This document shows positions 3,155 through 62,022 of a stretch of 64,000 bases of DNA, one piece after another (positions within the stretch are counted from its first letter, which is position 1; each line of letters starts with the position of its first letter). A program made the translations under genes and the position numbers. Source of the DNA: an uncultured Hyphomicrobiales bacterium (lineage in GTDB: Bacteria > Pseudomonadota > Alphaproteobacteria > Rhizobiales > Xanthobacteraceae). The stretch spans positions 1 to 64,000 of the forward strand of contig CAIRGJ010000056.1 in NCBI GenBank assembly GCA_903878085.1. The letters are read 5' to 3'. A model generated the notes under the pieces. The model was not told where the DNA came from, searched no databases, and worked only from the letters and a program-made list of their open reading frames with translations.

Positions 3155-4063
3155 TTAATGCCGACGGGCGGCGATGGGGCCGCCGGAACGTCCGGCACCG
3201 AGACCCGCGGCGACCGCCGCGGCAATTTGCGAAGGCGTATCGACGACGACTACGCCGGCACTTTCCAGAGCCATGCGTTTGCCGGCATAGCCGCCGGCAG
3301 TGCCGGTGACGATGGCGCCGGCGTGGCCCATCTTTTTGTTCGGCGGCGCCGCAGCGCCGGCGATGAAGGCCACCATCGGCTTGTTCATGGTCTTGGCGTA
3401 TTCCGCCGCCGCTTCTTCCATCGCACCGCCGATTTCGCCGACGATGACGATGGCGTCGGTGCCGGTATCCTTATCGAGCGCCTCGAGCGCGTCGCGCGTG
3501 GTGGTGCCGAGCATCGGATCACCGCCGATGCCGATGAAAGCCGACTGGCCGATGCCGGCGCGCGTCAGGTTCAGGCACACCAGCGTGCCGAGACTGCCCG
3601 AGCGCGAGATCACGCCGACGCGGCCGGGCGCGAACACGCTTCGAACGAAGGCCGGCATGATGCCGACGAAGGCTTCGCCGGGGGTGACGAGGCCGGCGGT
3701 GTTCGGGCCGACGATGCGGGTGCCGTGCTTCCCGGCGGCGGCGTGGATCGCCATCACGTCCTGCGCCGGGATATGCTCGGTCAGAACCACCAGCGTTTTG
3801 ACTTTTGCCTCGGCCGCCGACACCGCGGCCTCGCGCGCCATCGGCGGCGGAATGAACATGACGGCGACGTCGGCGCCGACGTGGGCCGCGGCTTCCGCGG
3901 TGGTGGCGAAAATGGGCACGCCGATGTGGCTTTCGCCGGCGCGCTTGGGATTGATGCCGGCGACCACGTTGGTGCCGTAGGCGATCATCTTCTCGGTCCA
4001 AAACGTGCCCTGCTTGCCGGTGATACCGAGCACGACGACGCGATCTTTTTTGCGGACGATCAT
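3155..4063 (-). CDS. sauD: ADP-forming acyl-CoA ligase, alpha subunit (SucD-like; probable sulfoacetate-CoA ligase)
   Basis: A 302-residue SucD-family subunit. The CoA-binding Rossmann fold is at the N-terminus (VVVLGITGKQGTFWTEKM), and the phosphohistidine is His247 in KKMGHAGAIV, as in succinyl-CoA synthetase alpha. The gene overlaps the beta subunit by four bases (ATGA-type coupling), so the two are made together. It is not the TCA-cycle sucCD: it lies directly downstream of an acylating aldehyde dehydrogenase and Xsc. That setting supports activation of sulfoacetate to sulfoacetyl-CoA (SauC/SauD type). Malate-CoA ligase-like activity is the main alternative. Family assignment is firm, substrate is inferred. 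Confidence 0.75.
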   Translation of the reverse strand: MIVRKKDRVVVLGITGKQGTFWTEKMIAYGTNVVAGINPKRAGESHIGVPIFATTAEAAAHVGADVAVMFIPPPMAREAAVSAAEAKVKTLVVLTEHIPAQDVMAIHAAAGKHGTRIVGPNTAGLVTPGEAFVGIMPAFVRSVFAPGRVGVISRSGSLGTLVCLNLTRAGIGQSAFIGIGGDPMLGTTTRDALEALDKDTGTDAIVIVGEIGGAMEEAAAEYAKTMNKPMVAFIAGAAAPPNKKMGHAGAIVTGTAGGYAGKRMALESAGVVVVDTPSQIAAAVAAGLGAGRSGGPIAARRH

Positions 4064-5187
4064 TGCGCCGCCTTTACCGCCGCCTGGACGGCATCTTCCA
4101 TGAAGTCGTAGGGCTCGATGCCAAGTTCGCGGCGCACCAGCGCCACCGCCTCGTCCTCGCCGGTGCCGTGGATCGAGAAGAACACCGGCACTTTGGGTTT
4201 GAGCTTAGCCCAAGCCTTCACCACGCCTTCCGCCATCACGTCGGTGCGGGCGAAGGCGCCGCAGAAATTGATCACCAGGCTTTTGACGCCGGGATTGGAC
4301 AGCACCAGGTCGAGTGCGATCTCGGACTTGGTATAGGCCTCGCCGCCGATCTCGAGGAAGTTGGCGGGCCTGCCGCCGTAATGGCTGATAACGTCCATCG
4401 TCGTCATCGTCAGCCCCGCGCCGTTGGCCAAGACGCCGACATTGCCGTCGAGCTGGATCAGCTTGAGGCCGGCGGCGGCGCCGCGCGCTTCCAGATCGGT
4501 CATGGCGTTGGCCGCGCCGCCGGCGGCGATGTCCGGTTGGCGATAGATCGCGGCATCGTCGAGCACGAACTTGCAGTCGAGCGCGACGACGCGGCCGTCG
4601 GCCAAGAGCGCCAGTGGGTTGATTTCGAGCAGTTCGGCGTCGCGCGAGCGGAACGCGGCATAGAGTTGATCGATGATCTGGGCGATCTGCGGTTGGGCTT
4701 CGCCCAGATCGAGACCCTTGAGCATGGCGGCAATATCGCGCGCGCGCGGTACATTATTGATGTCGACCAGCAGGCGGCGGATCGCGTCCGGCTTTTCCGC
4801 TGCGATTTCCTCGATGTCCATGCCGCCTTCGGTCGAGAACAGGATCAGCGGCTGGCGCGCCGCGGCGTCGAACAGCACGGCGGCGTAGAATTCGCGGGCG
4901 ATCTTGGCCTGCTCTTCGATCAGCAGGCGCTCGACTTTGTAATCACCGATCCGCATGCCGAGAATCTGCGACGCCACCTGCTCGGCCTCCGCCGGCGTAT
5001 TCGCCAGTTTGATGCCGCCCGCCTTGCCGCGTTTTCCCGTCGGCACCTGCGCCTTGACCACGCAAGGGCCGATCTGCGCCGCGGCCTCGGCGGCCTCCGC
5101 TGCGCTCGTCACCTGAATGCCGCGCGGAATGGGAATGCCGGCAGGCTGCAGCACCAGCGTTTTCGCGGCGTGTTCTTCGAAGTTCAT
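4060..5187 (-). CDS. sauC: ADP-forming acyl-CoA ligase, beta subunit (SucC-like; probable sulfoacetate-CoA ligase)
   Basis: A 375-residue SucC-family beta subunit with an N-terminal ATP-grasp domain (MNFEEHAAKTLVLQPAGIPIPRG at the start is the usual SucC opening) and a C-terminal CoA-ligase domain containing LANGAGLTMTTMDVI and LEIGGEAY. It partners the alpha subunit that starts inside its stop codon. A palindromic repeat separates it from the upstream aldehyde dehydrogenase gene, about 126 bases away, so differential expression or RNA processing within the operon is possible. The sulfoacetate substrate is inferred from xsc and sauS. The family also includes succinate and malate ligases. Confidence 0.75.
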   Translation of the reverse strand: MNFEEHAAKTLVLQPAGIPIPRGIQVTSAAEAAEAAAQIGPCVVKAQVPTGKRGKAGGIKLANTPAEAEQVASQILGMRIGDYKVERLLIEEQAKIAREFYAAVLFDAAARQPLILFSTEGGMDIEEIAAEKPDAIRRLLVDINNVPRARDIAAMLKGLDLGEAQPQIAQIIDQLYAAFRSRDAELLEINPLALLADGRVVALDCKFVLDDAAIYRQPDIAAGGAANAMTDLEARGAAAGLKLIQLDGNVGVLANGAGLTMTTMDVISHYGGRPANFLEIGGEAYTKSEIALDLVLSNPGVKSLVINFCGAFARTDVMAEGVVKAWAKLKPKVPVFFSIHGTGEDEAVALVRRELGIEPYDFMEDAVQAAVKAAQ

Positions 5188-5313: not shown

Positions 5314-6744
5314 TCATTTGCCGTATTTCGCCCAATAGGAGCCGAACAGATCTTCTTCGCTCGGTTTGTCTTCGGGGATGGTGGTGACGAGGTGGGTGAT
5401 GTTGAGGAAGTTCATGTAGTTCAGGTTTTCGGTGATGGAATTGCCGCCCCAGGTGCCGCAGCCCATGCTGAGCGTGAAGTTCAGCCCGCTGTCGAAGCCG
5501 CCGCCATTGGCAAACGTATGCGCCTGGTTGATTAGCACGCGCACCACGTCGGAGCGCTCGGCCAGTTGCCGGGCGCGGCCCATGTTCTTGGTATGCAGGC
5601 CGAGCGAGTGGCCACGGCCCTGATGGTCGAGAATGTCGTGGGCCTGCGTCATCGCCGCCTCGAAATCCTCGGCGCGGTAGACGGTCAGCACCAGCGCCAG
5701 CTTCTCGCCGGAAAACGGAAAATCGCGGCCGACACCGGTTTCCTCGACCATGAAGAACTTCTTGGCTTCGGCCTCCTTCGGCAGGCCGAAGCCGCGCGCC
5801 AGCACGTCGGCGTCGCGCGCGATCAAAGTGCGCGACAGCTTGCCGTCCGGCCACAGCGCGCTCTGGATGCGCGCCTTGTCCGCCGGCTTGGTCATATAGC
5901 CGCCGGCGCGCTCCAGCGCGGCGATGGCCCGGTCGTAGACGGCGTCGACGATGACGACCGAATTTTCCGACGAGCATGAGGTCGCATTGTCGAAGATCTT
6001 CGAGGCGCAAATCTTGCGCGCCGCGTCGTCGAGGTCGGCGGTCTCGTCGATGATCACCGGCACGTTGCCGGTACCGACGCCGATGGCCGGTGTGCCTGAG
6101 GAATAAGCGCGGCGCACGTTGTCCTGCGAGCCGGTGGCGACGATCAGGTCGGCCGCCTGCATCAACGCCTGGGTCATGTCCTTGGACGCCGGCGGCGGCA
6201 GGATCTGCACCAGATCTTCCGGCGCGCCGACCTTGCGCAATTCGGCGCGCATCAGCTCGACCGTGCGCATCGTGGTCTTCAGGCCGGCCGGCGACGACGC
6301 GATGATGATGGCGTTGCGGCCCTTGATCGCCATCATCGCCTTGTTGACCGGCGTGGCGCCCGGATTGGTCGACGGCGTGATGGCGCAGACGAGGCCGACC
6401 GGCTTGGCGTATTTCGTGAGGCCGCGCTTTTTGTCTTCTTCGATGATGCCGACTGACTTCACCCGCAGCAGGTCGCGCAAGGTACCAAACGTCTTGCGCT
6501 GCTTCTTGACGATCTTGTCGGGTACGTTGCCGAGCTTGGTGTCGGCGACCGCCAGTTCGGCCAGTTCCTTGGCGTGCGCCGGATTATACAACGACCACGC
6601 CAGCGCGGTGACGGCTTCGTCGGTGTGGGCCTGATCGGCCTGGCCGAAGATCGCCTGCGCGGCGCGGCCGCGCTTCACCAGCGCGTCGACAACTGCAAGC
6701 GCTGCCGGGTCCCCCGGGGTTTTGACTGCGACGGTCATGCTCAC
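5314..6744 (-). CDS. sauS: CoA-acylating aldehyde dehydrogenase (probable sulfoacetaldehyde dehydrogenase)
   Basis: A 476-residue CoA-acylating aldehyde dehydrogenase of the EutE/AdhE-N/SauS class. The catalytic Cys is at residue 257 in NATSCSSENSVV, preceded by a glycine-rich segment GVGTGNVPVIID. Here it would reduce sulfoacetyl-CoA to sulfoacetaldehyde with NAD(P)H, linking the CoA ligase to Xsc. It starts three bases after the end of xsc, so the two are one transcript. No targeting peptide of the microcompartment type is visible, which argues against a shell-enclosed pathway. Generic acetaldehyde dehydrogenase activity cannot be excluded. The neighbours make sulfoacetaldehyde the best guess. 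Confidence 0.8.
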   Translation of the reverse strand: MSMTVAVKTPGDPAALAVVDALVKRGRAAQAIFGQADQAHTDEAVTALAWSLYNPAHAKELAELAVADTKLGNVPDKIVKKQRKTFGTLRDLLRVKSVGIIEEDKKRGLTKYAKPVGLVCAITPSTNPGATPVNKAMMAIKGRNAIIIASSPAGLKTTMRTVELMRAELRKVGAPEDLVQILPPPASKDMTQALMQAADLIVATGSQDNVRRAYSSGTPAIGVGTGNVPVIIDETADLDDAARKICASKIFDNATSCSSENSVVIVDAVYDRAIAALERAGGYMTKPADKARIQSALWPDGKLSRTLIARDADVLARGFGLPKEAEAKKFFMVEETGVGRDFPFSGEKLALVLTVYRAEDFEAAMTQAHDILDHQGRGHSLGLHTKNMGRARQLAERSDVVRVLINQAHTFANGGGFDSGLNFTLSMGCGTWGGNSITENLNYMNFLNITHLVTTIPEDKPSEEDLFGSYWAKYGK

Positions 6745-6747
6745 TCC

Positions 6748-8523
6748 TTAGGAAACGACCTGCGGGCGCATGTCTTCGCGCTTGATGCCCGCGACCACCA
6801 CCGGCTTCTTCATGGCGTCGCGGCGGAACGGCTCACCCAGTTCCTGGTTCAGCACCACCTCGATGAACGTGGTGATGCGCTTCTTCTGGTCTTCGCAGGA
6901 CTGCCGCAGCGCCTCGGTGAGTTCGGCTTGCGTCTTCACCATGACGCCCTTGAGGCCGCAGCCTTGCGCGACCTTGGCGTAGCTGAGATGCGGATCGAGC
7001 TCGGTGCCGACGAAGTTGTCGGCGTACCACAGGATCGAATTGCGCTTCTCGGCGCCCCACTGGTAGTTGCGGAAGACCACCATGGTGATGCCCGGCCACT
7101 CCTCGCGGCCGATCGAGCTCATCTCGCTCATGGAGATGCCGAAGGCGCCGTCGCCGGCGAAGCCGACGCAAGGCGTATCCGGATTGCCGATCTTGGCGCC
7201 GATGATCGCCGGAAAGCCGTAGCCACAGGGACCGAACAGGCCGGGCGCCAGATATTTCCGGCCCTTCTCGAAGGTCGGATAGGCGTTGCCGATGGCGCAG
7301 TTGTTGCCGATGTCGCTGGAGATGATGGCGTCCTTCGGCAGCCCGGCCTGGATCGCACGCCAGGCCTGGCGCGGCGACATGCGGTCGGCGTCACGCTTGC
7401 GGGCATCGGCGTTCCAGCTGGTGCCCGGATCGTCATCCTCGTGATCCATGCTCGACAGCGTCTGCAGCCAGCGCGACTTGGTGGTGTGAATCAGCGCCTT
7501 GCGCTCGTCGCGGCCGTCATTGCCGGCCGACGGCGCCAGCTGCTTGAGGATTTGCTGCGCCACCAATTTGGCGTCGCCGCAAATGCCGACGGCGACCGGC
7601 TTGGTCAGGCCGATGCGATCCGGGTTGATATCGACCTGAATGATTTTGGCGGTCTTCGGCCAGTAGTCGATGCCGTAGCCCGGCAGCGTCGAGAACGGAT
7701 TGAGCCGCGTTCCCAGGCACAAGACCACGTCGGCTTTGGCGACCAGTTCCATCGCCGCCTTCGAGCCGTTATAGCCGAGCGGGCCAACGGCGAGCGGATG
7801 GCTGCCGGGGAATGAGTCATTGTGCTGGTAGTTGTTGCACACCGGCGCATCGAGCTTTTCCGCCAGCGCGGCGCAATCCGGGATGGCATTGGCGAGCACC
7901 ACGCCGGCGCCCGACAGGATGACCGGGAATTTCGCGGACGACAGCAGCTTCGCCGCTTCCGTCACGGCATTGGCGCCGCCGGCCGGACGCTCGAACTCGA
8001 CGATCGCCGGCATGACGATGTCGATGACCTGGGTCCAGTAGTCGCGCGGGATGTTGATCTGCGCCGGCGCCGACAGCCGCTTGGCCTTCAGGATGACGCG
8101 GTTCAAGACTTCGGCGACGCGCGACGGATCGCGGACTTCTTCCTGGTAGCAGACCATGTCGCGGAACAGCGCCATCTGCTCGACTTCCTGGAAGCCGCCC
8201 TGCCCGATGGTCTTGTTCGCCGCCTGCGGCGTGACCAGCAGCATCGGCGTGTGGTTCCAGTAGGCCGTCTTCATGCAGGTGACGAAATTGGTGATGCCGG
8301 GGCCGTTCTGCGCGATCGCCATCGCCATCTTGCCGGTGGTGCGCGTGTAGCCGTCGCAAATGAGACCGCCATTGGTCTCGTGCGCGACGTCCCAGAAGGT
8401 AATGCCGGCTGCCGGGAACAAGTCTGAGATCGGCATGAAGGCCGAGCCGATGATGCCAAAAGCATGCTCGATGCCATGCATCTGCAATACTTTCACGAAA
8501 GCTTCTTCCGTCGTCATTTTCAT
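6748..8523 (-). CDS. xsc: Sulfoacetaldehyde acetyltransferase
   Basis: A 591-residue ThDP-dependent enzyme that cleaves sulfoacetaldehyde with phosphate into acetyl phosphate and sulfite. The N-terminal pattern HGIEHAFGIIGSAFMPISD is characteristic of Xsc. The cofactor-activating Glu is at residue 49 (DVAHET), and the GDG-N ThDP/Mg motif begins at residue 457 (GDGAFGISMSEM). Upstream is the IclR regulator, downstream the acylating dehydrogenase, and pta lies 6 kb away to consume acetyl phosphate. This is the diagnostic gene of the locus, since Xsc is the shared desulfonation step for taurine, isethionate, sulfoacetate and sulfolactate breakdown. Confidence 0.92.
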   Translation of the reverse strand: MKMTTEEAFVKVLQMHGIEHAFGIIGSAFMPISDLFPAAGITFWDVAHETNGGLICDGYTRTTGKMAMAIAQNGPGITNFVTCMKTAYWNHTPMLLVTPQAANKTIGQGGFQEVEQMALFRDMVCYQEEVRDPSRVAEVLNRVILKAKRLSAPAQINIPRDYWTQVIDIVMPAIVEFERPAGGANAVTEAAKLLSSAKFPVILSGAGVVLANAIPDCAALAEKLDAPVCNNYQHNDSFPGSHPLAVGPLGYNGSKAAMELVAKADVVLCLGTRLNPFSTLPGYGIDYWPKTAKIIQVDINPDRIGLTKPVAVGICGDAKLVAQQILKQLAPSAGNDGRDERKALIHTTKSRWLQTLSSMDHEDDDPGTSWNADARKRDADRMSPRQAWRAIQAGLPKDAIISSDIGNNCAIGNAYPTFEKGRKYLAPGLFGPCGYGFPAIIGAKIGNPDTPCVGFAGDGAFGISMSEMSSIGREEWPGITMVVFRNYQWGAEKRNSILWYADNFVGTELDPHLSYAKVAQGCGLKGVMVKTQAELTEALRQSCEDQKKRITTFIEVVLNQELGEPFRRDAMKKPVVVAGIKREDMRPQVVS

Positions 8524-8558: not shown

Positions 8559-9422
8559 TCAGGATTTGGCCTGAAAGATTTCGGCCAGGTCGTCGGCGGC
8601 CCGCCGCAGCAACGGCAGATGTTTGCGGGCGGCCTGCTCGTTCATGCGCGCCTGCGGCGCCTGGATGGCGAGCGCGGCCAGTATTTCGCCGTTCTTACCG
8701 AGAACGGGGACCGCGATGCAAATCACGCCGGCCAGATATTCCTCGCGATCGAAGGACACCTGCTCCTTGCGGATCTGGCGCAGTTCGGCGTCGAGCTTGG
8801 ACCCTTCGGTAATGGTGCGTTCGGTGAAGCGGCGCAGATCCAGACTCTGCAGCAGGCGTTTGCGGCGTGGGCTTGGCGCCAGCGCCAGATAGAGCTTGCC
8901 GATGGCGCTGCAATGCAGCGGCACGCGCGAGCCCGAGGTGTAATGCAGCCGCAGCGGCCAGTCCTCGGCTTCGACGCGATCGAGATAGACCACCTCGCCG
9001 TTGAGCAGCGTGCCGATGTTGCAGGTCTCGTTCAGCATGCGCACCAGCCGTTGCAGCACGACGTGCGGGGCGTCGTTGCGCATCGACGATGACAGCGCAC
9101 CAAACGCAAGGTTGGTGAGCTTGGGGCCGACGATCAGCCGCCGGCGGCCCGGTTCGCGCGACAGGTAGCCTTGGCCGACGAACCAGTCGACCAGCCGGTA
9201 GGCGGTCGCCTTCGGCAGCTTCAGCGAGGCGATGATATCGAGCACGTCGACCGGGTTATGCGAATTGGCGACGTGTTCGAGGATCGCAAAGGAGCGCGCG
9301 GTGGCGCCGAGCTTCTGTTCGCGGGCGGCCTTAGCCGGATGCGGCGCGGCTTTGGCGGCGGCGCGGCGGCCTGTTGCGGGCGCGCCGCCAGACCTTGCAT
9401 CAAGAGCTATTTGACTAGCCAT
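8559..9422 (-). CDS. IclR-family transcriptional regulator
   Basis: A 287-residue IclR-type regulator. A basic Ala-rich N-terminal extension (about residues 1-40) precedes the winged helix (about 42-100, with LDIIASLKLPKATAYRLVDWF), followed by the effector domain with the signature VPLHCSAIGKLYLAL. The gene sits between tctA and xsc in the same operon, with gaps of 3 and 35 bases, and so probably controls its own unit. A candidate operator, TCTCA-N5-TGAGA, is found upstream of tctC and upstream of citrate synthase/pta. The effector is unknown, with a sulfonate or its aldehyde as the likely choice. Confidence 0.88.
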   Translation of the reverse strand: MASQIALDARSGGAPATGRRAAAKAAPHPAKAAREQKLGATARSFAILEHVANSHNPVDVLDIIASLKLPKATAYRLVDWFVGQGYLSREPGRRRLIVGPKLTNLAFGALSSSMRNDAPHVVLQRLVRMLNETCNIGTLLNGEVVYLDRVEAEDWPLRLHYTSGSRVPLHCSAIGKLYLALAPSPRRKRLLQSLDLRRFTERTITEGSKLDAELRQIRKEQVSFDREEYLAGVICIAVPVLGKNGEILAALAIQAPQARMNEQAARKHLPLLRRAADDLAEIFQAKS

Positions 9423-9425
9423 GGA

Positions 9426-10943
9426 TCACCTGGCGGCGGTTGGAGCGGGCGAAGCGAAATGCCGGAGATAGAGACGCTGGATCGACGGCAGCAGCAGAAC
9501 GATTGTGGTGAAGGCGACGATGGTGCCGGAGATCGGCCGGGTGAAGAACACCGTCCAGTCGTTGGAGAAGCTGATCATGGTGTTCATGAACGCCTCTTCC
9601 GCGATCGGACCGAGGATCACGCCGAGCACCAAAGGCGCCACCGGAAACTTCATGCGTTCGAAGCCGTAGCCGAGCACGCCGAAGCCGATGATCAGCCACA
9701 GATCGGTGACGTTGTTGCGGATCGACAGCGCGCCGATGAAGCACAGGATCAGCACATAGGCCGACACCACGGCTTCGGGGAAATCGAGGATCTTCACTAA
9801 CGGCCGGATGGCGAAATAGCCGATCGCGCACATCAACACCAGGCCGAGGAACAGCGACGCGAAGATGGTGTAGACCATGCCGGACGAACTGATCAGCACC
9901 TGCGGGCCGGGCTGGATACCGTGCAGCATGAAGGCGCCGAGGATGACCGCGGTGGCGCCTGAGCCCGGAATGCCGAGCGCCAGGAGATGCACCAGCGCGC
10001 CGCCGACCGAGGCGGTCGCCGCCGCCTGCGGCGCGATGATGCCCTCGGCAATGCCGGTGCCCATCTCGGCCTTGCGCTTGCCGAACTTGGCTTCGATGCC
10101 ATAGGCGACGAACGACGCGATGGTCGCGCCGGCGCCCGGCAAGAGGCCGATCAGATCGCCGACCACGGCCGAGCGGAAGAACATGCCTTTGACCTCGCCC
10201 ATTTCCTTCCAGGTCGGAAGTTCTGTATGGGCATCGGAAATCTTGGCAATCGGCTTGGTGGCGAAACCGGTTTCCAGCCGCGCCAGCACCTCGCCGACGC
10301 CATAGGCGCCGACCATCACCACCAGAAACTCGATGCCGTCGGCGAGCAGCGGCGAGCCGAGCGTAAAGCGGAATGCGCCGTAGATCGGATCGGTGCCGAC
10401 CGACGAGATCAGAATACCGACGCTCATGCTGATGAAGGCGTTGGCGAGCGAGCCTTTGCCGATCGCCACTACGCTCAACAGGCCGAATAAAACGATGACG
10501 AAATATTCCGGCGAGGAAAACCGCAGCGCGAATTTCGCCAGCGGCTCGGTCAGCGCCACCATTACTACTGCCGACAGCAGGCCGCCGCCGAGCGCGGAGA
10601 CCAGCGTCCAGCCCAGCGCTTTGGCCGGCTGGCCTTTGCGGCCCATGGTGTAACCGTCCCACAGCATCGGCACGTCGATCGGTTCGCCCGGTATCCTGAA
10701 CAAAATCGCGGTGAAGGCGCCGCCATAGGTGCCGGACACATACATCGCCGTCAGCAGCACGATCGAGGCGGTGACGTCCATTTTGTAGGTGAAGGGCAGC
10801 GCCAGGGCGACGCCCATTACCAGCGTGAGACCAGGCAAGACGCCGATCAGAAGTCCGACGACGATGCCGACGACCAGCATCGCCATGTTGATCGGCGTCA
10901 TGCAACTGACGAAACCGTGGGCAAGTTGGATGATGATATCCAT
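9426..10943 (-). CDS. tctA: Tripartite tricarboxylate transporter, large membrane subunit
   Basis: A 505-residue TctA-family protein with about twelve membrane helices. Family motifs include GVLPGLTLVMGVALALPFTY near the start, the GGAFTAILFRIPGEP loop, and a second copy of the half-repeat containing GLLPGAGATIASFVAYG at about residues 265-285. It forms the channel of a proton- or sodium-driven importer with TctB and the periplasmic TctC protein just upstream. The stop lies three bases from the iclR start. In this operon the substrate is plausibly sulfoacetate rather than a tricarboxylate, which is inference from operon partners. Confidence 0.9.
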   Translation of the reverse strand: MDIIIQLAHGFVSCMTPINMAMLVVGIVVGLLIGVLPGLTLVMGVALALPFTYKMDVTASIVLLTAMYVSGTYGGAFTAILFRIPGEPIDVPMLWDGYTMGRKGQPAKALGWTLVSALGGGLLSAVVMVALTEPLAKFALRFSSPEYFVIVLFGLLSVVAIGKGSLANAFISMSVGILISSVGTDPIYGAFRFTLGSPLLADGIEFLVVMVGAYGVGEVLARLETGFATKPIAKISDAHTELPTWKEMGEVKGMFFRSAVVGDLIGLLPGAGATIASFVAYGIEAKFGKRKAEMGTGIAEGIIAPQAAATASVGGALVHLLALGIPGSGATAVILGAFMLHGIQPGPQVLISSSGMVYTIFASLFLGLVLMCAIGYFAIRPLVKILDFPEAVVSAYVLILCFIGALSIRNNVTDLWLIIGFGVLGYGFERMKFPVAPLVLGVILGPIAEEAFMNTMISFSNDWTVFFTRPISGTIVAFTTIVLLLPSIQRLYLRHFASPAPTAAR

Positions 10944-10949
10944 GCTGCC

Positions 10950-11492
10950 CTAGAGCCCCGGTATGGCGAAAAAGATGTCGGTGATCTTGTCGAACGGCGC
11001 GATGCCGCGCGGCAGCGACACATAGGCGATGCGCAGGAACAACACGCCGCAGACGATCGTCACCGCGGCGCTGGCGCCCCAGATCACGGCATGATCGCGA
11101 TAGCGGCCGACATACATGAAAGCGGCGAGGAACAGGAACGTGCCGAGGATGAAGCCGAGATAGGGCACGGCGACGGCGTAGACGCCCATCAACACGACGC
11201 CGCCGATCAACAGGCTGAGATAGACCGGCTCGGCCTGCTCGTCGGTGTGCGGCTCGCGATCGAACACCTCGATGAAGCCGGTGGCGTCGCGGTTGCCGGC
11301 GATGATGCGTCGGCCCAGTTCGTACAGGCAGGCCGCTCCCATCAGCAGAATGGCGAGACGCGGCCATGCGCCGGGGCCGAGCAAGTCGCCCCGCGGCGTG
11401 TATTCGAACTGGCCAGCGTTAATGTAGAGGGTTATGGCGATGACCAAACCGACGACATAAGGCAACAGCGAACGGACCAAATGGTTTTGCAT
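10950..11492 (-). CDS. tctB: Tripartite tricarboxylate transporter, small membrane subunit
   Basis: A 180-residue protein with four predicted membrane helices arranged as in TctB: one at residues 10-26, then three clustered in the second half with PYLGFILGTFLFLAAFMYVG as the most typical stretch. A short acidic/polar loop separates helices one and two. It lies six bases from tctA and four from tctC, in the standard tctC-tctB-tctA order. TctB is poorly conserved in general, so the assignment leans on topology and position. Confidence 0.85.
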   Translation of the reverse strand: MQNHLVRSLLPYVVGLVIAITLYINAGQFEYTPRGDLLGPGAWPRLAILLMGAACLYELGRRIIAGNRDATGFIEVFDREPHTDEQAEPVYLSLLIGGVVLMGVYAVAVPYLGFILGTFLFLAAFMYVGRYRDHAVIWGASAAVTIVCGVLFLRIAYVSLPRGIAPFDKITDIFFAIPGL

Positions 11493-11496
11493 TTGC

Positions 11497-12462
11497 CTAA
11501 TTCGTCGCCATCGTTTTCTTCATGTCTTCGAGCTGTTCGTCGATGAACGGCGTCGCCTTGGCCGCATCGACGAAGCTGTCGGCGGCGCCGTACTGATCGA
11601 CCAGGAACTTCTGGTATTCCGGCATCGCCGCCACCGCGGCCAGCGTGTCCGACAGCTTTTTGACGATCTCGGGCGGCGTGCCCGAGCGCACCACGATGGC
11701 GCGGAACTGCGGCAGCGCGACGTTGAAGCCTAGTTCATAGGACGACGGGATGTCTTTGAACGCCGGCAGGCGTTCCTTGCCGAAAATCAGCAGCGGCCGC
11801 ATCTGCTTGTTGTCGAGGAACGATGCGACGTCGCCGGCCTGCTCATAGAGCGCGTCGGCGTGGCCGCCGAGGATCGAGACATAGCGCTCGCTCGGCTTGG
11901 AGAACGGCACCTGGACGAACTTCAAGCCTTTCCGCGCGATGACGCTGAGCGAGAAATCGTCGACGCTGCCGAAGCCGAGCGTCGCGATCTTCAGTTTGCC
12001 GGGTTCGTCGCGCAGCGCCTTCTCAAAATCGGCCCAGGTTTTGTACGGGCTGTCGTGCTTCACGAAGATGAAGGACGGGCCTTTGATCATCACCGCCACC
12101 GGCGTGATGTCGGCCATGGTCCAGCGCGGCGATTTGCCGGCGAGCAGCGCGTGGCTGTCGGCGATGTAGACTGCAGCGGAATAACCGTCGGCCGGCGCCG
12201 ACAATAATTTCGCCATGCCGGTGCCGCCGGTGCCGCCCGGCACGTTGACGACCGGCAGGCCCTGGCCGAGCAAGGGCTCGGCAAGCTTGCTGATCAGGCG
12301 CGCCAGTTGGTCGGCGCCGCCGCCTGGGCCCCACGGCACGATCAATTCGATCGGCCGTTCCGGATAGCCGGCCGCCATGGCCGGGGCGCCGTACAGCACC
12401 GCGCTCGTGGCAGCCAACGCAAACGCAAAGCTTCGCGTGATCGAACGTGTCGTCCAATGCAT
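11497..12462 (-). CDS. tctC: Tripartite tricarboxylate transporter substrate-binding protein (Bug/TctC)
   Basis: A periplasmic Bug-family binding protein of 321 residues from the ATG at 12462, which has GGGAGG upstream and opens a clean Sec signal peptide (residues 1-30, cleavage after AMA). A longer reading frame reaches 12558 but its N-terminus is not signal-like. The mature start AGYPERPIELIVPWGPGGGADQLAR is typical of the family. It is the first gene of the sulfonate operon. Residues that would bind a carboxylate are present, but the sequence alone does not tell sulfoacetate from other acids. Confidence 0.85.
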   Translation of the reverse strand: MHWTTRSITRSFAFALAATSAVLYGAPAMAAGYPERPIELIVPWGPGGGADQLARLISKLAEPLLGQGLPVVNVPGGTGGTGMAKLLSAPADGYSAAVYIADSHALLAGKSPRWTMADITPVAVMIKGPSFIFVKHDSPYKTWADFEKALRDEPGKLKIATLGFGSVDDFSLSVIARKGLKFVQVPFSKPSERYVSILGGHADALYEQAGDVASFLDNKQMRPLLIFGKERLPAFKDIPSSYELGFNVALPQFRAIVVRSGTPPEIVKKLSDTLAAVAAMPEYQKFLVDQYGAADSFVDAAKATPFIDEQLEDMKKTMATN

Positions 12463-12525
12463 GGCCGAAACCTCCCTGAATGCCGCTGCTTTGGCGGCCG
12501 GCTGACGGCGGGTTGGCCCGCTCGT

Positions 12526-12550
12526 CATAGTCTCATTATTTGAGACTGCC
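12526..12550 (-). promoter_or_regulatory. Candidate IclR operator upstream of tctC
   Basis: A perfect inverted repeat AGTCTCA-TTATT-TGAGACT occupies 12529-12547, 67-85 bases before the tctC start. Its core TCTCA-N5-TGAGA with the same spacer recurs at 14026-14040 between citrate synthase and pta. The position fits a promoter operator of the operon-encoded IclR protein. No experimental site is known to me for this sequence. Confidence 0.5.
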
Positions 12551-12659
12551 ATTCTCAATACGATAACAGAGGGTCTGGACCCTGCAATGGGGAAACTGAG
12601 GCGTAGCGTCTCGCAGAATGGGATTATGTAGGCGAAAAAGACCGCAGCGGCGGCGTTTT

Positions 12660-12835
12660 CTCAGCGCGCGGGAATTGCCGTTCCCTCCCCGCGCAGCGTG
12701 GGGAGGGTGGTGAGTATCGCGTCAGCGATGCGAACCGGGTGGGGGCGTCCGGAGGACTCGATTGCATAAAGCCCCCACCCCTGACCCCTCCCCACACTCG
12801 CAAGCGCTCGCGGGGGAGGGGAAACGAGAGGCCGT
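12660..12835. repeat. Compound GC-rich palindromic repeat between tctC and citrate synthase
   Basis: The stretch from 12560 to 12854 contains no supportable gene. It holds a hairpin CCCTCCCCGC...GTGGGGAGGG (12683-12707), the sequence GCGTCAGCGATGCGAACCGG (12719-12738) shared with positions 1-20 of the window, and a second hairpin CTCCCCAC...GGGGGAGGGG (12788-12821). It may stop transcription from the citrate synthase gene before tctC. Confidence 0.6.
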
Positions 12836-12854
12836 CCGGAAATGACGACGCTAG

Positions 12855-13997
12855 CTACCGCTTCTCCACCGATACATAGGTGCGCGCGTCGGGGCCATTG
12901 TAGAGCGTGAGCGGCCTGATCAGGATGTTGTTCTCGAACTGCTCGAGCACCTGCACCACCCAGCCCGGCACCCGGCCGATGGCGAAGATCGGCACGAACA
13001 GATCGCGCTTAACGCCGAGCAGGTGGTAGACGACGCCGGAATAGAAATCGACATTCACATTGACGCCGTGGCGGGCGTAAGGCGCCATCGCCGCCACCAC
13101 CGCCTGCAAAATCTCGAACCACTTCGGCTGGCCCATTTCCTTGGATAGTCGCTCGACGCCGGCCCGCATATGGCGCGCGCGCGGGTCCTCGGCGCGATAG
13201 ACGCGATGGCCGAAGCCGGTGATGGCGACGCCGGCTTTGCGCTTGTCCTTGACGTAATCGGCGGCGCGGGCCGGATCGCCAATCTCCTCGGCCATTTTCA
13301 TGACGTCCTCGGCGGCGCCGCCATGCGCCGGCCCCGACAGCGCGGCAATCGCCGCGACGATCGCGGCATGCAGATTGGCCTGGGTGCCGACGACGACACG
13401 CGCGGCGAAGGACGAGGCGTTGGAGCCATGCTCGGCGTGCAGAATGAGATCACGGTCGATCAGCTGCGCCGCGTCGACGCTGGGCCGTTTGCCGGTGAGC
13501 ATCCACAGCAGATTGGCGGCGTGGCTGAGCGAGCTGTCTGCCGGCACCGGCTCAAGACCGTCGCGGATGCGCGAATGGACAGCAACGATCATCGGCACCT
13601 GCGAGGTCAGCCGCACGGCCTTGCGCAGCGTCGCCTCGCGCGAATTTTCGCCGGTTTCCGGATCGAACACCGCCAGCGCCGACGCCGCCGTGCGCAGCAC
13701 GTCCATCGGGTGGCCGGATCTGATCGAACGGATGATGTCCAGCACCGGCGCCGGCAATTGCCGCGCGGCTTTGAGTTCGGCATCGAGGCTTGCCAATTGC
13801 GGCGCGGTCGGCAGATCGCCATGCATCAGCAGCCACGCGGTCTCTTCGAAGCTGGAATGCTCGGCAAGATCGTGGATCGAATAACCGCGGTAGCGCAGCT
13901 CGCCGGCCTTGCCGTCGATGAAGGTGCAGGGCGAACGGTCGAAATAGACACCCGTGAGGCCGCGATGAATCTTGATCGGTTCGTTGGTTTCGGTCAT
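12855..13997 (-). CDS. Citrate synthase family protein (possibly 2-methylcitrate synthase type)
   Basis: A 380-residue citrate synthase of the short, type II-lacking form. Visible catalytic elements are the HAEHGSNAS segment, His264 in GFGHRVYRAEDPRA and the Asp of NVNVDFYSG. It joins acetyl-CoA (or propionyl-CoA) to oxaloacetate. The gene is divergent from pta with only 46 bases between starts, and the palindrome shared with the tctC promoter lies in that gap. I therefore read it as a dedicated enzyme that drains acetyl-CoA made by Xsc and Pta, not as the housekeeping gltA. Methylcitrate synthase is the main alternative since short forms often accept propionyl-CoA. Confidence 0.85.
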   Translation of the reverse strand: MTETNEPIKIHRGLTGVYFDRSPCTFIDGKAGELRYRGYSIHDLAEHSSFEETAWLLMHGDLPTAPQLASLDAELKAARQLPAPVLDIIRSIRSGHPMDVLRTAASALAVFDPETGENSREATLRKAVRLTSQVPMIVAVHSRIRDGLEPVPADSSLSHAANLLWMLTGKRPSVDAAQLIDRDLILHAEHGSNASSFAARVVVGTQANLHAAIVAAIAALSGPAHGGAAEDVMKMAEEIGDPARAADYVKDKRKAGVAITGFGHRVYRAEDPRARHMRAGVERLSKEMGQPKWFEILQAVVAAMAPYARHGVNVNVDFYSGVVYHLLGVKRDLFVPIFAIGRVPGWVVQVLEQFENNILIRPLTLYNGPDARTYVSVEKR

Positions 13998-14025
13998 TGA
14001 TTTTCTCCGGCCTGCTTAATCAGAT

Positions 14026-14040
14026 TCTCACGCGGTGAGA
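14026..14040. promoter_or_regulatory. Candidate IclR operator between citrate synthase and pta
   Basis: The inverted repeat TCTCACGCGGTGAGA has the same arms and the same five-base spacer as the palindrome upstream of tctC. It lies 29-43 bases before the citrate synthase start and ends three bases before the pta ATG. It could control both divergent genes, and its closeness to pta would suit repression. Confidence 0.5.
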
Positions 14041-14043
14041 TGC

Positions 14044-15030
14044 ATGGATTTGCTCGATCGCTTGTTTGATATCGCACGCACGCGGTATCGCAAAATTGTT
14101 TTGCCGGAAGGCGACGACGCGCGCATCGTCGCCGCCGCCGCGCATCTCAAAAGCGAGAAAATCGCGCAGCCGATCTTGCTCGGCGCTGCGGACGCCATCG
14201 CGACCGTCGCGGCGCAAGCCGGAATCTCACTCGATGGGATAACGACGATCGATCCGCACAACGACGCGCGGCTGTCGTCATACGGCGCGGCATTGGCCGG
14301 CGTGCGCGACAGCATGACGCCAGCGATGGCAACAAGGCTCGCCAGCAAGCCGCTATATTTCGGCGGCATGATGGTGCGCCAAGGCGACGCCGACGCGATG
14401 GTGGCAGGCTGCGCCAATCCGACGCGGCGCGTGATCGAAGCCGGATTGATGACGGTGGGTCTGACGGCCGGTATCGCGCTGCCGTCGAGCTATTTTCTGA
14501 TCGTGGTGCCGGATTTTCTTGGGGCAGGTCCGCGGCCCTTCGTGTTCGCCGATTGTGCGGTCAATGCCGACCCCACGGCGCACGAACTCGCCGACATCGC
14601 TATCGCCTCGGCGCGCAGCGCGCAGGCTTTGCTCGGCGAGACGCCGCGCGTGGCGATGCTGTCGTTCTCGACCAAAGGCAGCGCGCAGCACGCCCACGTC
14701 GACAAAGTGCGCAAGGCGCTCGAACTGGTGCGGCAGCGCGAGCCGTCGCTCGCCATCGACGGCGAGTTTCAGGCCGACGCCGCGCTGGTGCCGGCGGTGG
14801 CGCAGAAGAAAGTCAAAGACCCCAGCGACGTCGCCGGCCAGGCCAATGTGCTGATCTTCCCGGATCTGGATTCCGGCAATATTGGCTACAAGCTGACGCA
14901 ATGGCTGGGCGGCGCGCGGGCGGTCGGTCCGTTCCTGCAGGGCTTTGCGCGGCCGATCAGCGACCTGTCGCGCGCGGCAAGCGTCGAGGACATCGTCACC
15001 ACCTGCGCGGTGGTGGCGGCGACCGCTTAA
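14044..15030 (+). CDS. pta: Phosphate acetyltransferase
   Basis: A 328-residue Pta of the short, catalytic-domain-only type. It converts acetyl phosphate and CoA to acetyl-CoA and phosphate. Family motifs visible include [16 protein letters not shown] near the start, [29 protein letters not shown] and the C-terminal [17 protein letters not shown]. No N-terminal DRTGG-like regulatory domain is present. The ATG at 14044 has no clear ribosome site, and a GTG nine bases upstream is in frame. Because Xsc produces acetyl phosphate, Pta is the expected next step, and it is common beside xsc. The gene ends tail-to-tail with ccoS, overlapping by two bases. Confidence 0.9.
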
Positions 15031-15182
15031 GTCGTTTTCTCGATATCGTCATCCGACAGCACGCGCAGCGCAGCGCCGTCGACGTCGCTGTACTGGCCGC
15101 TGCGCAACGCCCACAGGAACGCGAACAGGCCGGTAAGGCCGAGGCCGAGCGCGATCGGCACCATGTAGATCAGGACATTCAT
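15027..15182 (-). CDS. ccoS: Cbb3-type cytochrome oxidase assembly protein CcoS
   Basis: A 51-residue protein beginning [20 protein letters not shown], one membrane helix (about residues 3-24) with a short acidic tail ([11 protein letters not shown]). The pattern is that of CcoS, needed for cofactor insertion into the cbb3 oxidase. Its ATG overlaps the ccoI stop by four bases, so it is translationally coupled as the last gene of ccoGHIS. Its stop overlaps the end of the convergent pta gene. Confidence 0.88.
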
Positions 15183-17347
15183 GATTTGCCTTTATACGCT
15201 CTCAAGGCATTGAGCGTCACCAGCAAAGATGAGCCCGACATCGCCAGCGCCGCGATCAGCGGCGTCACCATGCCGGCAATCGCCACGGGCACGGCGATGG
15301 CATTGTAGATCACCGCGAGCCAGAGGTTTTCCGTCATCAGCCGCCGGGCGCGGCGGGAAATGACAATGGCGTCCAGCACCGGCGTCAGATTTTCGCCGAG
15401 GAACACCGCGTCGGCCTGCGCTTGCGTCACGTCGGCGGCATCGATAGGCGACAGCGAGACATGCGCGGCCGCCAGCGCCGGAGCATCGTTGAGGCCGTCG
15501 CCGACCATCAGCACGCGGCGGCCCTGCGCTTTGAGCGCTTCGATCATCTCGATTTTTTCGGCCGGCTTTAATTCGCCGAGCCAATCGCGGATGCCGAGCG
15601 CCTCGGCCACCGGTCGCACCGCGTCGCTGCGGTCGCCGGACAGAATGCGCAGATCGAGCCCGAGCACCTTGAGCGATTGCACGGCAGCGGCGGCATCGGG
15701 CCGCAGCCATTGGCTGATGGCGAAAGTCGCGTTATGCCCCTCGTGGGCAAAGTAGATTTGCGACATCCCCGGCTCGGGCGCGGCAGACTCCGTGACACCG
15801 CAGAACGACGCACTGCCGAGCCGCGCTTCGACGCCGTCGATCATGACACGCACGCCCTGCCCCGGTTCTTCGGTGGCGCCATCGAACGGCGTGCGCAGCG
15901 CCGCTTCGCGCGACAGCGCCACCGCCAGCGGATGGTGGCTCGACAGCGCCAGCCGCGCCGCCTGTTGCAGTAGTGCCGGATCGATCGACGCGGCATTGAC
16001 GACGCGCGGCTCCGGCAGCGTCAGCGTGCCGGTCTTGTCGAAGATCACGGTGTCGGCTTCCGCCAGCCGCTCGATGGCGTCGCCCGAATTGAGGATGAGC
16101 CGGGCGCGGAACAGCGCACCCGACGCCACCACCTGCACCGCGGGAATCGCCAGCGCCAGCGCGCAGGGGCAGGTGATGATCAGCACCGCGATCGCCGTCA
16201 CCACGGCGTCGTGAACGCTGGCGCCCGCGATCAGCCAGCCGGCGCAAGTCAACGCCGCGGTCAGATGCACGACCGGCGCATAGACCCGCGCGGCGCGGTC
16301 GGCGAGCCGCATGGCGTGCGACTTGGCACTCGCCGCTTTTTCCAGCAGCTTCTCGATCTCGTCGACCAGCGTGGCCGCGCCACCCGCCGTCACCCGCATC
16401 GTCAGCGTGCCGGCATCGTTCATACTGCCGGCATAGATCGTGGCGCCGGCGGCCACCTTGCGGCGCGCGGTCTCGCCGGTGATCAGGCTTTCGTCGATCT
16501 CGGAATTTCCGGTCAGCACCGTGCCGTCGGACGGCACGCGTTCGCCGGCCTTCACCAGCAGACGGTCGCCTGTTTTGACCGCCGCCACCGGCACGCGCAC
16601 CAGTTCGTCGCCATCGAAGCGGTGCGCGGTCTCGCCCTTCAACGCCGCCAGATTGCCGGCAACGGCCCGCGTCTTGCGACGCATCTCGTGATCGAGCGTC
16701 CGCCCGCAGAGCAGGAAGAACAGCAGCATCAGCGCAGAATCGTAATAGGCGTGGGTGGCGTGGTGCGCGGTCTCGACCACCGACATGCCGAGCGCCAAAA
16801 TGACGCCGAGCGAGATCGGCACGTTCATGTTGAGATTGCGCGTGCGGATGCCGCGCCAGGCGCTCTCGAAGAATGGCCGGCCAGCATAGGCCGCCGCCGG
16901 CAGCGCGATCAGCGCCGAGGCCCAGTGGAAAAAGTCGCGCGTCTCCGGCGTGATGTCGGTGGCGTTGCCCGACCACACCGACACCGACAGCAGCATCACG
17001 TTCATGGCGGCAAAGCCCGCGACCGCCAGGCAGCGCGTCAGGCGCCGCGCCTCGGCGGCTTCCTCCTGCTCGGCGCGCAACGGCACGAAGGGGTGGCCGC
17101 TATAGCCGATGCGTTCGAGCGTGGTGAGGATTTGCGATGGCCTGAATACGCCATCCAACCAGGCGACGTGCAGGCGGCGGTTGGTGAAATTGAGCCGCGC
17201 CTCGGTCACGCCCGGCAACTGCTTCACCGCGCCTTCGATCTTTGCAATGCAGGCGCCGCAAGCGATGCCGTCGACCGCCAGCTCCATGCCGAACGTGCCG
17301 TTCCCTTCCGGCTTGGCATAGAGACTTAGATCGAGGGCTTCGGTCAT
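15179..17347 (-). CDS. ccoI: Cation (copper)-translocating P-type ATPase CcoI
   Basis: A 722-residue P1B-type ATPase that supplies copper for cbb3 oxidase assembly. The N-terminal metal-binding domain carries CxxC in GIACGACIAKIEG. The membrane CPC motif is in ITCPCALALAIPAVQV, the phosphorylation site is DKTGTLTLPEP, and the hinge is MVGDGLNDAPALAAAHVSL. I use the ATG at 17347, which has GGAG upstream. A reading frame extending to 17401 runs into a palindromic repeat and is not credible. It lies between ccoH and ccoS and belongs to the ccoGHIS unit. Confidence 0.92.
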   Translation of the reverse strand: MTEALDLSLYAKPEGNGTFGMELAVDGIACGACIAKIEGAVKQLPGVTEARLNFTNRRLHVAWLDGVFRPSQILTTLERIGYSGHPFVPLRAEQEEAAEARRLTRCLAVAGFAAMNVMLLSVSVWSGNATDITPETRDFFHWASALIALPAAAYAGRPFFESAWRGIRTRNLNMNVPISLGVILALGMSVVETAHHATHAYYDSALMLLFFLLCGRTLDHEMRRKTRAVAGNLAALKGETAHRFDGDELVRVPVAAVKTGDRLLVKAGERVPSDGTVLTGNSEIDESLITGETARRKVAAGATIYAGSMNDAGTLTMRVTAGGAATLVDEIEKLLEKAASAKSHAMRLADRAARVYAPVVHLTAALTCAGWLIAGASVHDAVVTAIAVLIITCPCALALAIPAVQVVASGALFRARLILNSGDAIERLAEADTVIFDKTGTLTLPEPRVVNAASIDPALLQQAARLALSSHHPLAVALSREAALRTPFDGATEEPGQGVRVMIDGVEARLGSASFCGVTESAAPEPGMSQIYFAHEGHNATFAISQWLRPDAAAAVQSLKVLGLDLRILSGDRSDAVRPVAEALGIRDWLGELKPAEKIEMIEALKAQGRRVLMVGDGLNDAPALAAAHVSLSPIDAADVTQAQADAVFLGENLTPVLDAIVISRRARRLMTENLWLAVIYNAIAVPVAIAGMVTPLIAALAMSGSSLLVTLNALRAYKGKS

Positions 17348-17361
17348 GACATTATCTCCGC

Positions 17362-17395
17362 TCATTCCCGCGCAAGCGGGAATCCAGAGCCACAA
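17362..17395. repeat. Short palindromic repeat upstream of ccoI
   Basis: CATTCCCGC and GCGGGAATC flank GCAA, a common dispersed intergenic palindrome of alphaproteobacteria. It lies in the 123-base gap between ccoH and ccoI. The remaining gap has another partial GC palindrome around 17420-17445 and no gene. Confidence 0.5.
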
Positions 17396-17470
17396 CCTCA
17401 ATATCTGTTATCTGCAGCCCTGGGCTTTCGCGGGGGCGAGCGGATGTGGGGCTGCCCGCACCCATGATCG

Positions 17471-60438: not shown

Positions 60439-61809
60439 TCAGGCCGCGGCGGCGCGCTGGTCCTGCCGCAGCATCTGCATCAATTCGCGCGCCGAGCCGA
60501 GATTCTCCAGGTTCGCCACAGTCGCAATGATGCGATCCGCGGCCGACGAAGAAATCCTGCCCTTGGCGTAGGTCCGCAGCTTGGTCTCGATCTGCGCCCG
60601 CGTCAGCCGGTTTTCGAACGAGCCACGCGGGAACTCGCAACGCTTGGCGATCTTGGCGCCATCGGCCAGCTCGATCTCGACCGTCGCCTGCACATCCTTG
60701 AGGCTTTCATCGGCCTGGATGTCGATCAATTCCGCGGCAGCCTTGCGGATCGCAGGATCGTCGTAGCGCTCGGGCGTGAACTGATCGAGCGTGAGCACAT
60801 GATCCTCGATGATGATCGCCGCGGTGTAATGCGCGGAAATCAGTGCGTCGAATTTCGCCTTGTACTTCGACAGCTTGCCGTGAAGATTGAATACGGTCGG
60901 CGCCAGCCGGATCTTGGCGCTCTTGATGTCTTTCAGCTTGAACGGCTTTTCTTCGAGCGCATCGAACAGCGCGGTGTTCATGCCCTGAATCGACGAAGCC
61001 GAGGGCCAGAGCCGCAGCGCGATCTGGTCGAGCTCCCAGCGCTTGCCGAGATCCTTGGTGACCTCCTCCGGCTTGCCGCCGTTGGAGAAGGTATTGAACA
61101 GACCGCCGTCTTTGTGGGTCAGGAATTCGCGGGTGGCGAGGAAATCCTGCTCGGCCAGCAGCGCCGCCATCAAGCCTGACAGCGCGCCGCGGCACTGATG
61201 GAATTTCACCGTCGGCGTGCCCCAGGCGGCAAAGGTGCCGCCGGCCTGGCTGCCGGCAAGCCCGAAGGCCCGCGCCATGGCTTCGGGTGACAAACCGATG
61301 AGACGGCCAGTCGAAGCTGCGCCGCCGAAGGCGCCGAATACGCCCGGGCCGTGATAGCCGCGAGCACGGAACGCCGGATAATCTGAGGCTACGCCAACAC
61401 GTGTGGTGACTTCAAATCCGGCCGCCAGAGCGACCAGCAGGTCGCGGCCCGAGGCGTTGTCGCGCTCGCCGATCAGAAGCGCCGGCGGCACCACTTCCGG
61501 CGTCACATGCGTGAGCGTCGAGCGATGAATATCGCACATGGTCACCGCGGTGATGAGGTAGCCGTTGAGCAAAGTCGCGCCCGCCAGCGACAGGCTGCCG
61601 CCGCCGATCACCGTGCTCTCGGACGACATCGCGAGGCTTTGGGCAAAGCGCGACACCTGGCCGGTTTCTTCGCCGGCATGGCCGGCCAGCGCACAAGCGA
61701 GCGTATCGAGCAATACGTCCTTGACCTGTTCGCGCACCGGCGGCGGGATGTCGTCGTAGCCCAGCGTCGCCGCAAAACGCGCGAGTTGTTCGGTTGAAGA
61801 TTCGCTCAT
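60439..61809 (-). CDS. MmgE/PrpD family protein
   Basis: A 456-residue MmgE/PrpD-family protein. The family start (LARFAATLGYDDIPPPVREQVKDVLLDTLACALAG) and NGYLITAVTMCDIHRSTLTHVTPEVVPPALLIGE, with conserved Asp/His, are present, as is the helical C-terminal domain (KGRISSSAADRIIATVANLE). GGAGG precedes the ATG. The family holds 2-methylcitrate dehydratase, cis-aconitate decarboxylase and many proteins of unknown activity beside binding proteins of the Bug type. Here its neighbours are an SsuA-type and a divergent Bug protein. The reaction cannot be specified. Confidence 0.85.
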   Translation of the reverse strand: MSESSTEQLARFAATLGYDDIPPPVREQVKDVLLDTLACALAGHAGEETGQVSRFAQSLAMSSESTVIGGGSLSLAGATLLNGYLITAVTMCDIHRSTLTHVTPEVVPPALLIGERDNASGRDLLVALAAGFEVTTRVGVASDYPAFRARGYHGPGVFGAFGGAASTGRLIGLSPEAMARAFGLAGSQAGGTFAAWGTPTVKFHQCRGALSGLMAALLAEQDFLATREFLTHKDGGLFNTFSNGGKPEEVTKDLGKRWELDQIALRLWPSASSIQGMNTALFDALEEKPFKLKDIKSAKIRLAPTVFNLHGKLSKYKAKFDALISAHYTAAIIIEDHVLTLDQFTPERYDDPAIRKAAAELIDIQADESLKDVQATVEIELADGAKIAKRCEFPRGSFENRLTRAQIETKLRTYAKGRISSSAADRIIATVANLENLGSARELMQMLRQDQRAAAA

Positions 61810-62022
61810 CGTTTCCTCCGCACTCTGGCTTGTTGCCGGGCCGTCCTTGATCGGAGGCCGCCGTTTGTCGCATGACGATCAAGATAACGCATCGTCCGCG
61901 CCGCCGTTTTCTTCTCACACTATTATGTGCCGTTTTACATTGTGGCAATATCAAAATAGAACTAGCCACCATACGCAGAACGAACCAGCCACGGTTCGGG
62001 CATTTCAGGTGAGGAAACCAGC

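Follow-up and report, generated by a model that had tools for sequence, protein, structure and literature searches.

Known sulfonate systems and the genes of the locus

The SauR-SauSTU system of Cupriavidus necator H16 is a sulfoacetate pathway that uses SauS and Xsc and has a regulator of the IclR type. Sulfoacetate is converted to its CoA ester, which SauS reduces to sulfoacetaldehyde; Xsc then splits sulfoacetaldehyde into sulfite and acetyl phosphate, which Pta converts to acetyl-CoA. Gene clusters of xsc and pta, whose products act in that order, are known for C2 sulfonates. The inducer of the Cupriavidus SauR system is given as sulfonatoacetate in the accessible part of one report (PMC7057948). 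According to the accessible part of Suvorova and Gelfand (2021, PMC8222616), the main group-1 operator of the IclR family is GKTYCRY-W3-4-RYGRAMC, alternating three-box sites have been reported for 32 orthologous groups of IclR, and the centres of the sites lie mostly 20-80 nt before the gene start. Table 1 of that paper gives the IphR operator of Comamonas as GTCTCATCAGAC plus a downstream half-site (PMC8222616).

In this study, we analysed a stretch of 64,000 nucleotides, referred to as the window, from an uncultured Hyphomicrobiales bacterium (genome G000) in which a sulfonate locus carries two copies of one palindrome (Table 1). The initial annotation had assigned an IclR regulator to the operon, and the Pfam models agree with this assignment: PF09339 (N-terminal winged helix) scores 35 bits and PF01614 (C-terminal effector domain) 138 bits, both over their cut-offs, and none of the NCBIfam regulator models reaches its cut-off. 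Both xsc and sauS score over the curated cut-offs, which places the operon in the Xsc desulfonation pathway. The TctABC transporter probably carries the sulfonate, a substrate deduced rather than observed, and the sucD/sucC-like pair is, from its context, a probable sulfoacetate-CoA ligase. As in the SauR-SauSTU system, a regulator of the IclR type stands alongside a SauS/Xsc pathway, and the likeness to SauR derives from this gene context. Unlike that system, the transporter is TctABC, the ligase is SucCD-like, and the proposed regulon extends to pta and a second citrate synthase. The consecutive steps of Xsc and Pta are shared with the xsc-pta clusters, whereas the pairing of Pta with citrate synthase across a shared palindrome is not.

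The genome has two PF00285 genes, and the other full-length citrate synthase lies on contig C26. Two genomes of the same genus that lack the IclR gene (G016 and G027) have one full-length citrate synthase each and weaker partial matches. Therefore, the enzyme of the locus is an extra copy beside the sulfonate genes. The initial annotation regarded citrate synthase and pta as transcripts separate from the operon. This holds for pta, which is divergent, but citrate synthase is oriented like the tct operon, and its transcription could continue into the operon. A copper-type P-type ATPase gene (15179-17401) adjoins pta, likewise in G009, G023 and G039; further on, up to 26357, lie a 2-oxoacid:acceptor oxidoreductase pair and a gene cluster for a cbb3 oxidase (ccoG, P, O, N).

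Table 1. Features of the sulfonate locus, in positions of the window.
Feature	Position	Strand	Sequence or basis
sucD/sucC-like pair	3155-5187	-	Below succinate-CoA ligase cut-offs
sauS, acylating sulfoacetaldehyde dehydrogenase	5314-6744	-	NF047625, 787 bits (cut-off 600)
xsc, sulfoacetaldehyde acetyltransferase	6748-8523	-	TIGR03457, 957 bits (cut-off 676)
IclR-family regulator, SauR-like by context, proposed palindrome binder	8559-9422	-	Pfam HTH_IclR and IclR_C over cut-off
tctA, tctB, tctC, tripartite tricarboxylate-type transporter	9426-12462	-	Pfam TctA, TctB, TctC
Putative operator site 1, upstream of tctC	12531-12545	.	TCTCATTATTTGAGA
Third box (half-site); forms an everted repeat with the right arm of site 1, giving an alternating three-box site	12553-12557	+	TCTCA
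Inferred promoter of the tct-iclR-xsc operon	12560-12587	-	-35 TTGCAG (12587-12582), 16 nt, -10 TATCGT (12565-12560)
Candidate weak auxiliary operator, 78 bp from site 1	12609-12623	.	TCTCGCAGAATGGGA, 8/10
Candidate weak auxiliary operator, 128 bp from site 1	12659-12673	.	TCTCAGCGCGCGGGA, 8/10
Second citrate synthase (type II)	12855-13997	-	TIGR01800 over cut-off
Putative operator site 2, between divergent citrate synthase and pta	14026-14040	.	TCTCACGCGGTGAGA
pta, phosphate acetyltransferase	14044-15030	+	NF007233, 339 bits (cut-off 310), scored from the GTG start at 14035

Sequence, rarity and conservation of the palindromes

The palindrome had been described as two 5-base arms, TCTCA and TGAGA, around an identical 5-base spacer in two intergenic regions. 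The arms and the 5-base gap are exact in both copies, but only the length of the spacer is shared, its sequence being TTATT at site 1 and CGCGG at site 2. Moreover, site 2 is not wholly intergenic: its right arm is included in the ribosome-binding region of pta (GGTGA, 5 nt, ATG at 14044), and the GTG start given by the ORF caller at 14035 falls inside that arm. With its flanks, site 1 reads AGTCTCA-N5-TGAGACT (12529-12547) and has arms of 7 bp; at site 2 the arms (TCTCAC/GTGAGA) are 6 bp long, with 3 bases between them. The centres of the sites are at -76 relative to tctC, -36 relative to citrate synthase and -11 relative to pta.

These properties can be compared with the IclR operators in the accessible part of Suvorova and Gelfand (2021, PMC8222616). 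Like the group-1 operators, the palindrome is an inverted repeat with an 11-nt core, YCRY-N3-RYGR, its centres lie in or near the published range, and site 1 has the three-box alternation. All of the perfect sites contain TCAN-N3-NTGA, although the inner R/Y and W positions of YCRY-W3-4-RYGR are not always kept (a T at the inner R in site 1 of G000, and G/C spacers at site 2). In contrast to the main subgroups of group 1, whose outer triplets are TGT, GTT, WTT or NGT, the outer triplet here is GTC/GAC, and we treat the palindrome as a variant. GTC is present on at least one side in all ten perfect copies of site 1 and on both sides in five of them; the left outer triplet of site 2 is TTC in 10 of 11 loci. 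The IphR operator as tabulated there shares the GTCTCA left half and an extra half-site but differs in its shorter spacing and in its regulon, which concerns isophthalate rather than a sulfonate (PMC8222616).

When one mismatch is allowed, the window contains three matches where 0.94 would be expected, and a count of three is reached in 6 of 100 shuffles. Taken alone, this count is weak evidence against chance. A genome-wide scan found five perfect copies in G000 (4.4 Mb). The search of the genus covered 43 genomes, comprising seven carriers of the IclR gene and 36 without a match at E<=1e-40. The 36 genomes contain 24 perfect copies in total, or 0.67 per genome, so the motif is not frequent at random positions, the shared-operator idea survives this check, and two copies within 1.5 kb are unusual. 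In the seven carriers there are 18 perfect copies, of which 11 are at the operon start or the citrate synthase/pta junction.

The wider comparison covered 391 genomes of the family; the IclR search (E<=1e-80) and the pta search (E<=1e-100) each drew 391 family genomes, which we took as one set. At these cut-offs, the IclR gene was found in 13 genomes, including G000, and pta in 12, all of them among the 13; none of the other 378 genomes has pta. The thirteenth carrier, G041, is 72% complete, and its contig terminates within tctA. The locus combines sucCD-like genes, sauS, xsc, iclR and tctABC with the divergent pair of citrate synthase and pta; it is found again within this genus and in two others. 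Eight of the relatives are metagenome-assembled genomes, and several are incomplete.

At the junction, the palindrome is perfect in 9 of the 12 genomes with the pair (G000, G018, G023, G036, G039, G133, G209, G223 and G237), and shows one mismatch (9/10) in G009 and G222; only G273 lacks it. Of the copies at the operon start, 10 of 12 are perfect (G000, G009, G018, G023, G036, G039, G133, G209, G222 and G273), and the sites of G223 and G237 reach only 8-9 of 10. The six same-genus loci that cover both places have 11 of 12 possible copies perfect; the junctions of the six loci from the two other genera comprise four perfect copies, one at 9/10 and one absence, with those of G209, G223 and G237 nearly identical and not independent. 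Across the 11 loci with the junction site (G273 left out), columns of the arms have a mean identity of 0.98 versus 0.58 for the 15 upstream bases, and in the loci compared the arms are constant whereas the spacers and flanks vary. In three genera the sites are kept both upstream of the orthologous operons and at the orthologous junctions, as the initial annotation would predict, the junction of G273 being the exception. In that genome (contig C236; iclR at 61600-62352, tctC near 65400, pta and citrate synthase at 73544-75642), the citrate synthase/pta pair is apart from the operon, about 11 kb from iclR and about 8 kb from tctC, and the only perfect copy genome-wide is upstream of tctC. The only perfect copy in G223 is at the citrate synthase/pta junction.

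The region upstream of the operon contains additional candidate signals. The third box is present in all six same-genus loci and in G209 and G237; in G209 it yields a perfect everted repeat, TGAGACTGTCAGTCTCA. The box of G222 departs from TCTCA at one base, and no clear box was seen in G133, G223 or G273. A pair of hexamers, TTGC(A/G)G and a TATCGT-like (TA-type) sequence 16-18 nt apart, precedes the palindrome on the coding strand in 10 of 12 genomes under an expression that was drawn up after the pattern was seen and carries no background control; the pair is looser in G273 (TTGTCG), and none was found in G223. A scan of 12400-14200 with the E. coli consensus found no promoter, including for the operon, citrate synthase and pta. 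If transcription started about 7 nt past the -10 hexamer, the start would coincide with the third box, and the palindrome would follow shortly after it. The initial annotation did not list the weaker copies further upstream. A site of at least 8/10 is located 77-80 bp upstream in 7 of 12 genomes (G000, G009, G018, G036, G039, G209 and G237), and one at 128 bp in 4 of 12 (8/10 in G000, G023 and G039, and 10/10 in G133). Their placing suggests a repressor with auxiliary sites, although the auxiliary sites of group 1 are usually 18-22 bp away in the accessible part of the published survey (PMC8222616).

Two side features of the region were recorded. A one-mismatch copy inside pta (14225-14239, TCTCACTCGATGGGA) is present in four of six same-genus genomes, all of which use the TCA codon there; TCA is rare in this gene, accounting for 12 of the 207 Ser codons in 12 pta genes. 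This copy could act as an operator within the gene, or it could be coding sequence kept by descent. Between citrate synthase and tctC, the stretch 12680-12830 is G+C-rich and contains the inverted repeats CCCTCCCC/GGGGAGGG; by eye, a similar stretch occurs in G023 and G036 and not in G009 or G018.

Two of the three other perfect copies in G000 are within long open frames and are probably coding sequence. The third (contig C2, 57538-57552) precedes a gene for a SorA-like sulfite dehydrogenase, with about 150 bp between the palindrome and the likely gene start; the gene scores 432 bits with NF052245, short of the cut-off of 600. Xsc releases sulfite as its by-product, and a sulfite dehydrogenase would be a functionally apt member of the regulon. 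The upstream DNA examined for the closest homologues in G018, G223 and G237 has no site of at least 8/10, the match in G041 is only partial, and G133 has the same 15-mer with no sorA homologue in the surrounding 3 kb. We therefore treat a fourth regulon member as a lead only. The G018 homologue (contig C132) matches in several pieces and in different frames and may be broken or misassembled. No consistent further target emerged from the other perfect sites in the carriers G009, G023, G039, G041, G133, G209 and G222, for which the open frames were inspected at eight sites and the nearest frames were searched in Pfam at five.

Alternative explanations for the palindromes

Site 2 might act in RNA rather than in DNA, as a 6-bp hairpin (TCTCAC-NNN-GTGAGA) that sequesters the ribosome-binding site of pta and is unrelated to site 1. 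Such a hairpin would account for the identity of the right arm with the ribosome-binding sequence and for the closing C-G pair of the 6-bp stem, which is present in all 11 loci that have the site. However, the 10 distinct sequences contain no compensatory change at any of the six pairs, and the two departures (G009 and G222) each break a pair. The stem is also outside the minimum-energy fold of 14010-14070 (z 0.42), and the same sequence is kept upstream of the operon, at a distance from the start codon. Lacking covariation and a place in the best fold, the hairpin was rejected, and we judge it very unlikely. The ribosome-binding sequence still bears on the operator reading, since half of site 2 doubles as that sequence and the conservation of the right arm is partly explained in another way. 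Coincidence, combined with similarity due to coding, ribosome binding and inheritance and with no shared operator, would fit the only mildly high count in the window, but it is extremely improbable given that both arms are conserved at both places in three genera amid variable spacers and flanks, and that the background in the 36 genomes is low. Because it is conserved in relatives, the pair of palindromes is well beyond chance.

A different regulator could own the palindromes while the local IclR binds elsewhere, and one candidate is a paralogous IclR encoded on contig C26 of G000. The two proteins are 44% identical and have the same recognition helix, LPKAT. A related palindrome, GTCYCR-N5-YGRGAY, is located upstream of the paralogue in four of the five genomes looked at (G000, G009, G018 and G039), reading GTCCCGCAGCATGGGAC in G000 upstream of position 7796 of the contig; none was seen in the paralogue locus of G041. 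A sister palindrome of this kind is as expected if IclR proteins with an LPKAT helix read GTCYCR half-sites, and the paralogue could bind the same sites, with cross-talk. The paralogue was found in five of the seven same-genus genomes with the local IclR, and the site at 12609 resembles its own site. Against its ownership, each of the 11 palindrome-bearing junctions examined comes from a genome that has the local IclR. G209 lacks tctABC next to the operon and has a perfect palindrome upstream of iclR itself; G237 is arranged likewise, with a site of 8-9 of 10. Moreover, G023 and G036 (the latter 69% complete) have both palindromes and no match to the paralogue at E<=1e-40. Because these two genomes carry the sites without such a match, the paralogue may own them but is the less likely owner, and we consider this reading improbable.

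The proposed sulfonate regulon

We believe it highly likely that both palindromes are operators of the local SauR-like regulator of the IclR family and together define one sulfonate regulon, and that this single regulator very probably controls the transporter, the desulfonation enzymes, Pta and the second citrate synthase. The proposal of the initial annotation, that a shared operator would place citrate synthase and pta in the sulfonate regulon, gains support from the comparative footprinting, the rarity of the motif, its co-occurrence with the IclR gene and its IclR group-1 core. We infer IclR binding, repression, the ligand, looping and the position of the promoter from the DNA sequence. 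Site 1 and the third box would be just downstream of the promoter of the tctCBA-iclR-xsc-sauS-sucCD operon, around the transcription start, and site 2 would cover the citrate synthase leader together with the region in which pta starts. When no sulfonate is available, a dimer or tetramer of IclR would occupy both sites and block transcription, and the weaker sites, which lie upstream of the operon promoter at fixed spacings, may permit bridging or looping. The ligand, probably sulfoacetate or a product of it, would lift the block, and the transporter, the enzymes of activation and desulfonation, Pta and the second citrate synthase would rise together. The acetyl phosphate from Xsc would then pass through acetyl-CoA to citrate, and the second citrate synthase is the logical next step after Pta in the pathway.

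A more elaborate version of the shared-operator reading appears doubtful to us, although conceivable. It would make the palindrome of site 2 a two-way switch by which entry into the TCA cycle depends on the presence of a single sulfonate, place the operon promoter in a repression loop formed by the three-box operator and the auxiliaries at 78 and 128 bp, and have the regulon of this strain capture the sulfite dehydrogenase gene of contig C2 as well.

The literature searched contains no report of a SauR operator or of a citrate synthase in a sulfonate regulon, with the supplementary tables of PMC8222616, which may list the regulon, lying outside the search. As far as these searches show, the regulon would be newly described, whereas regulons of this kind are already known. 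For an uncharacterised sulfonate regulator of soil bacteria, the analysis predicts both an operator and a regulon, and the GTC-11-GAC variant of the IclR operator would be usable for finding the same regulon elsewhere. A testable prediction is that growth on sulfoacetate induces the second, locus-bound citrate synthase. If the proposal is true, desulfonation would be linked to the TCA cycle through one transcription factor.
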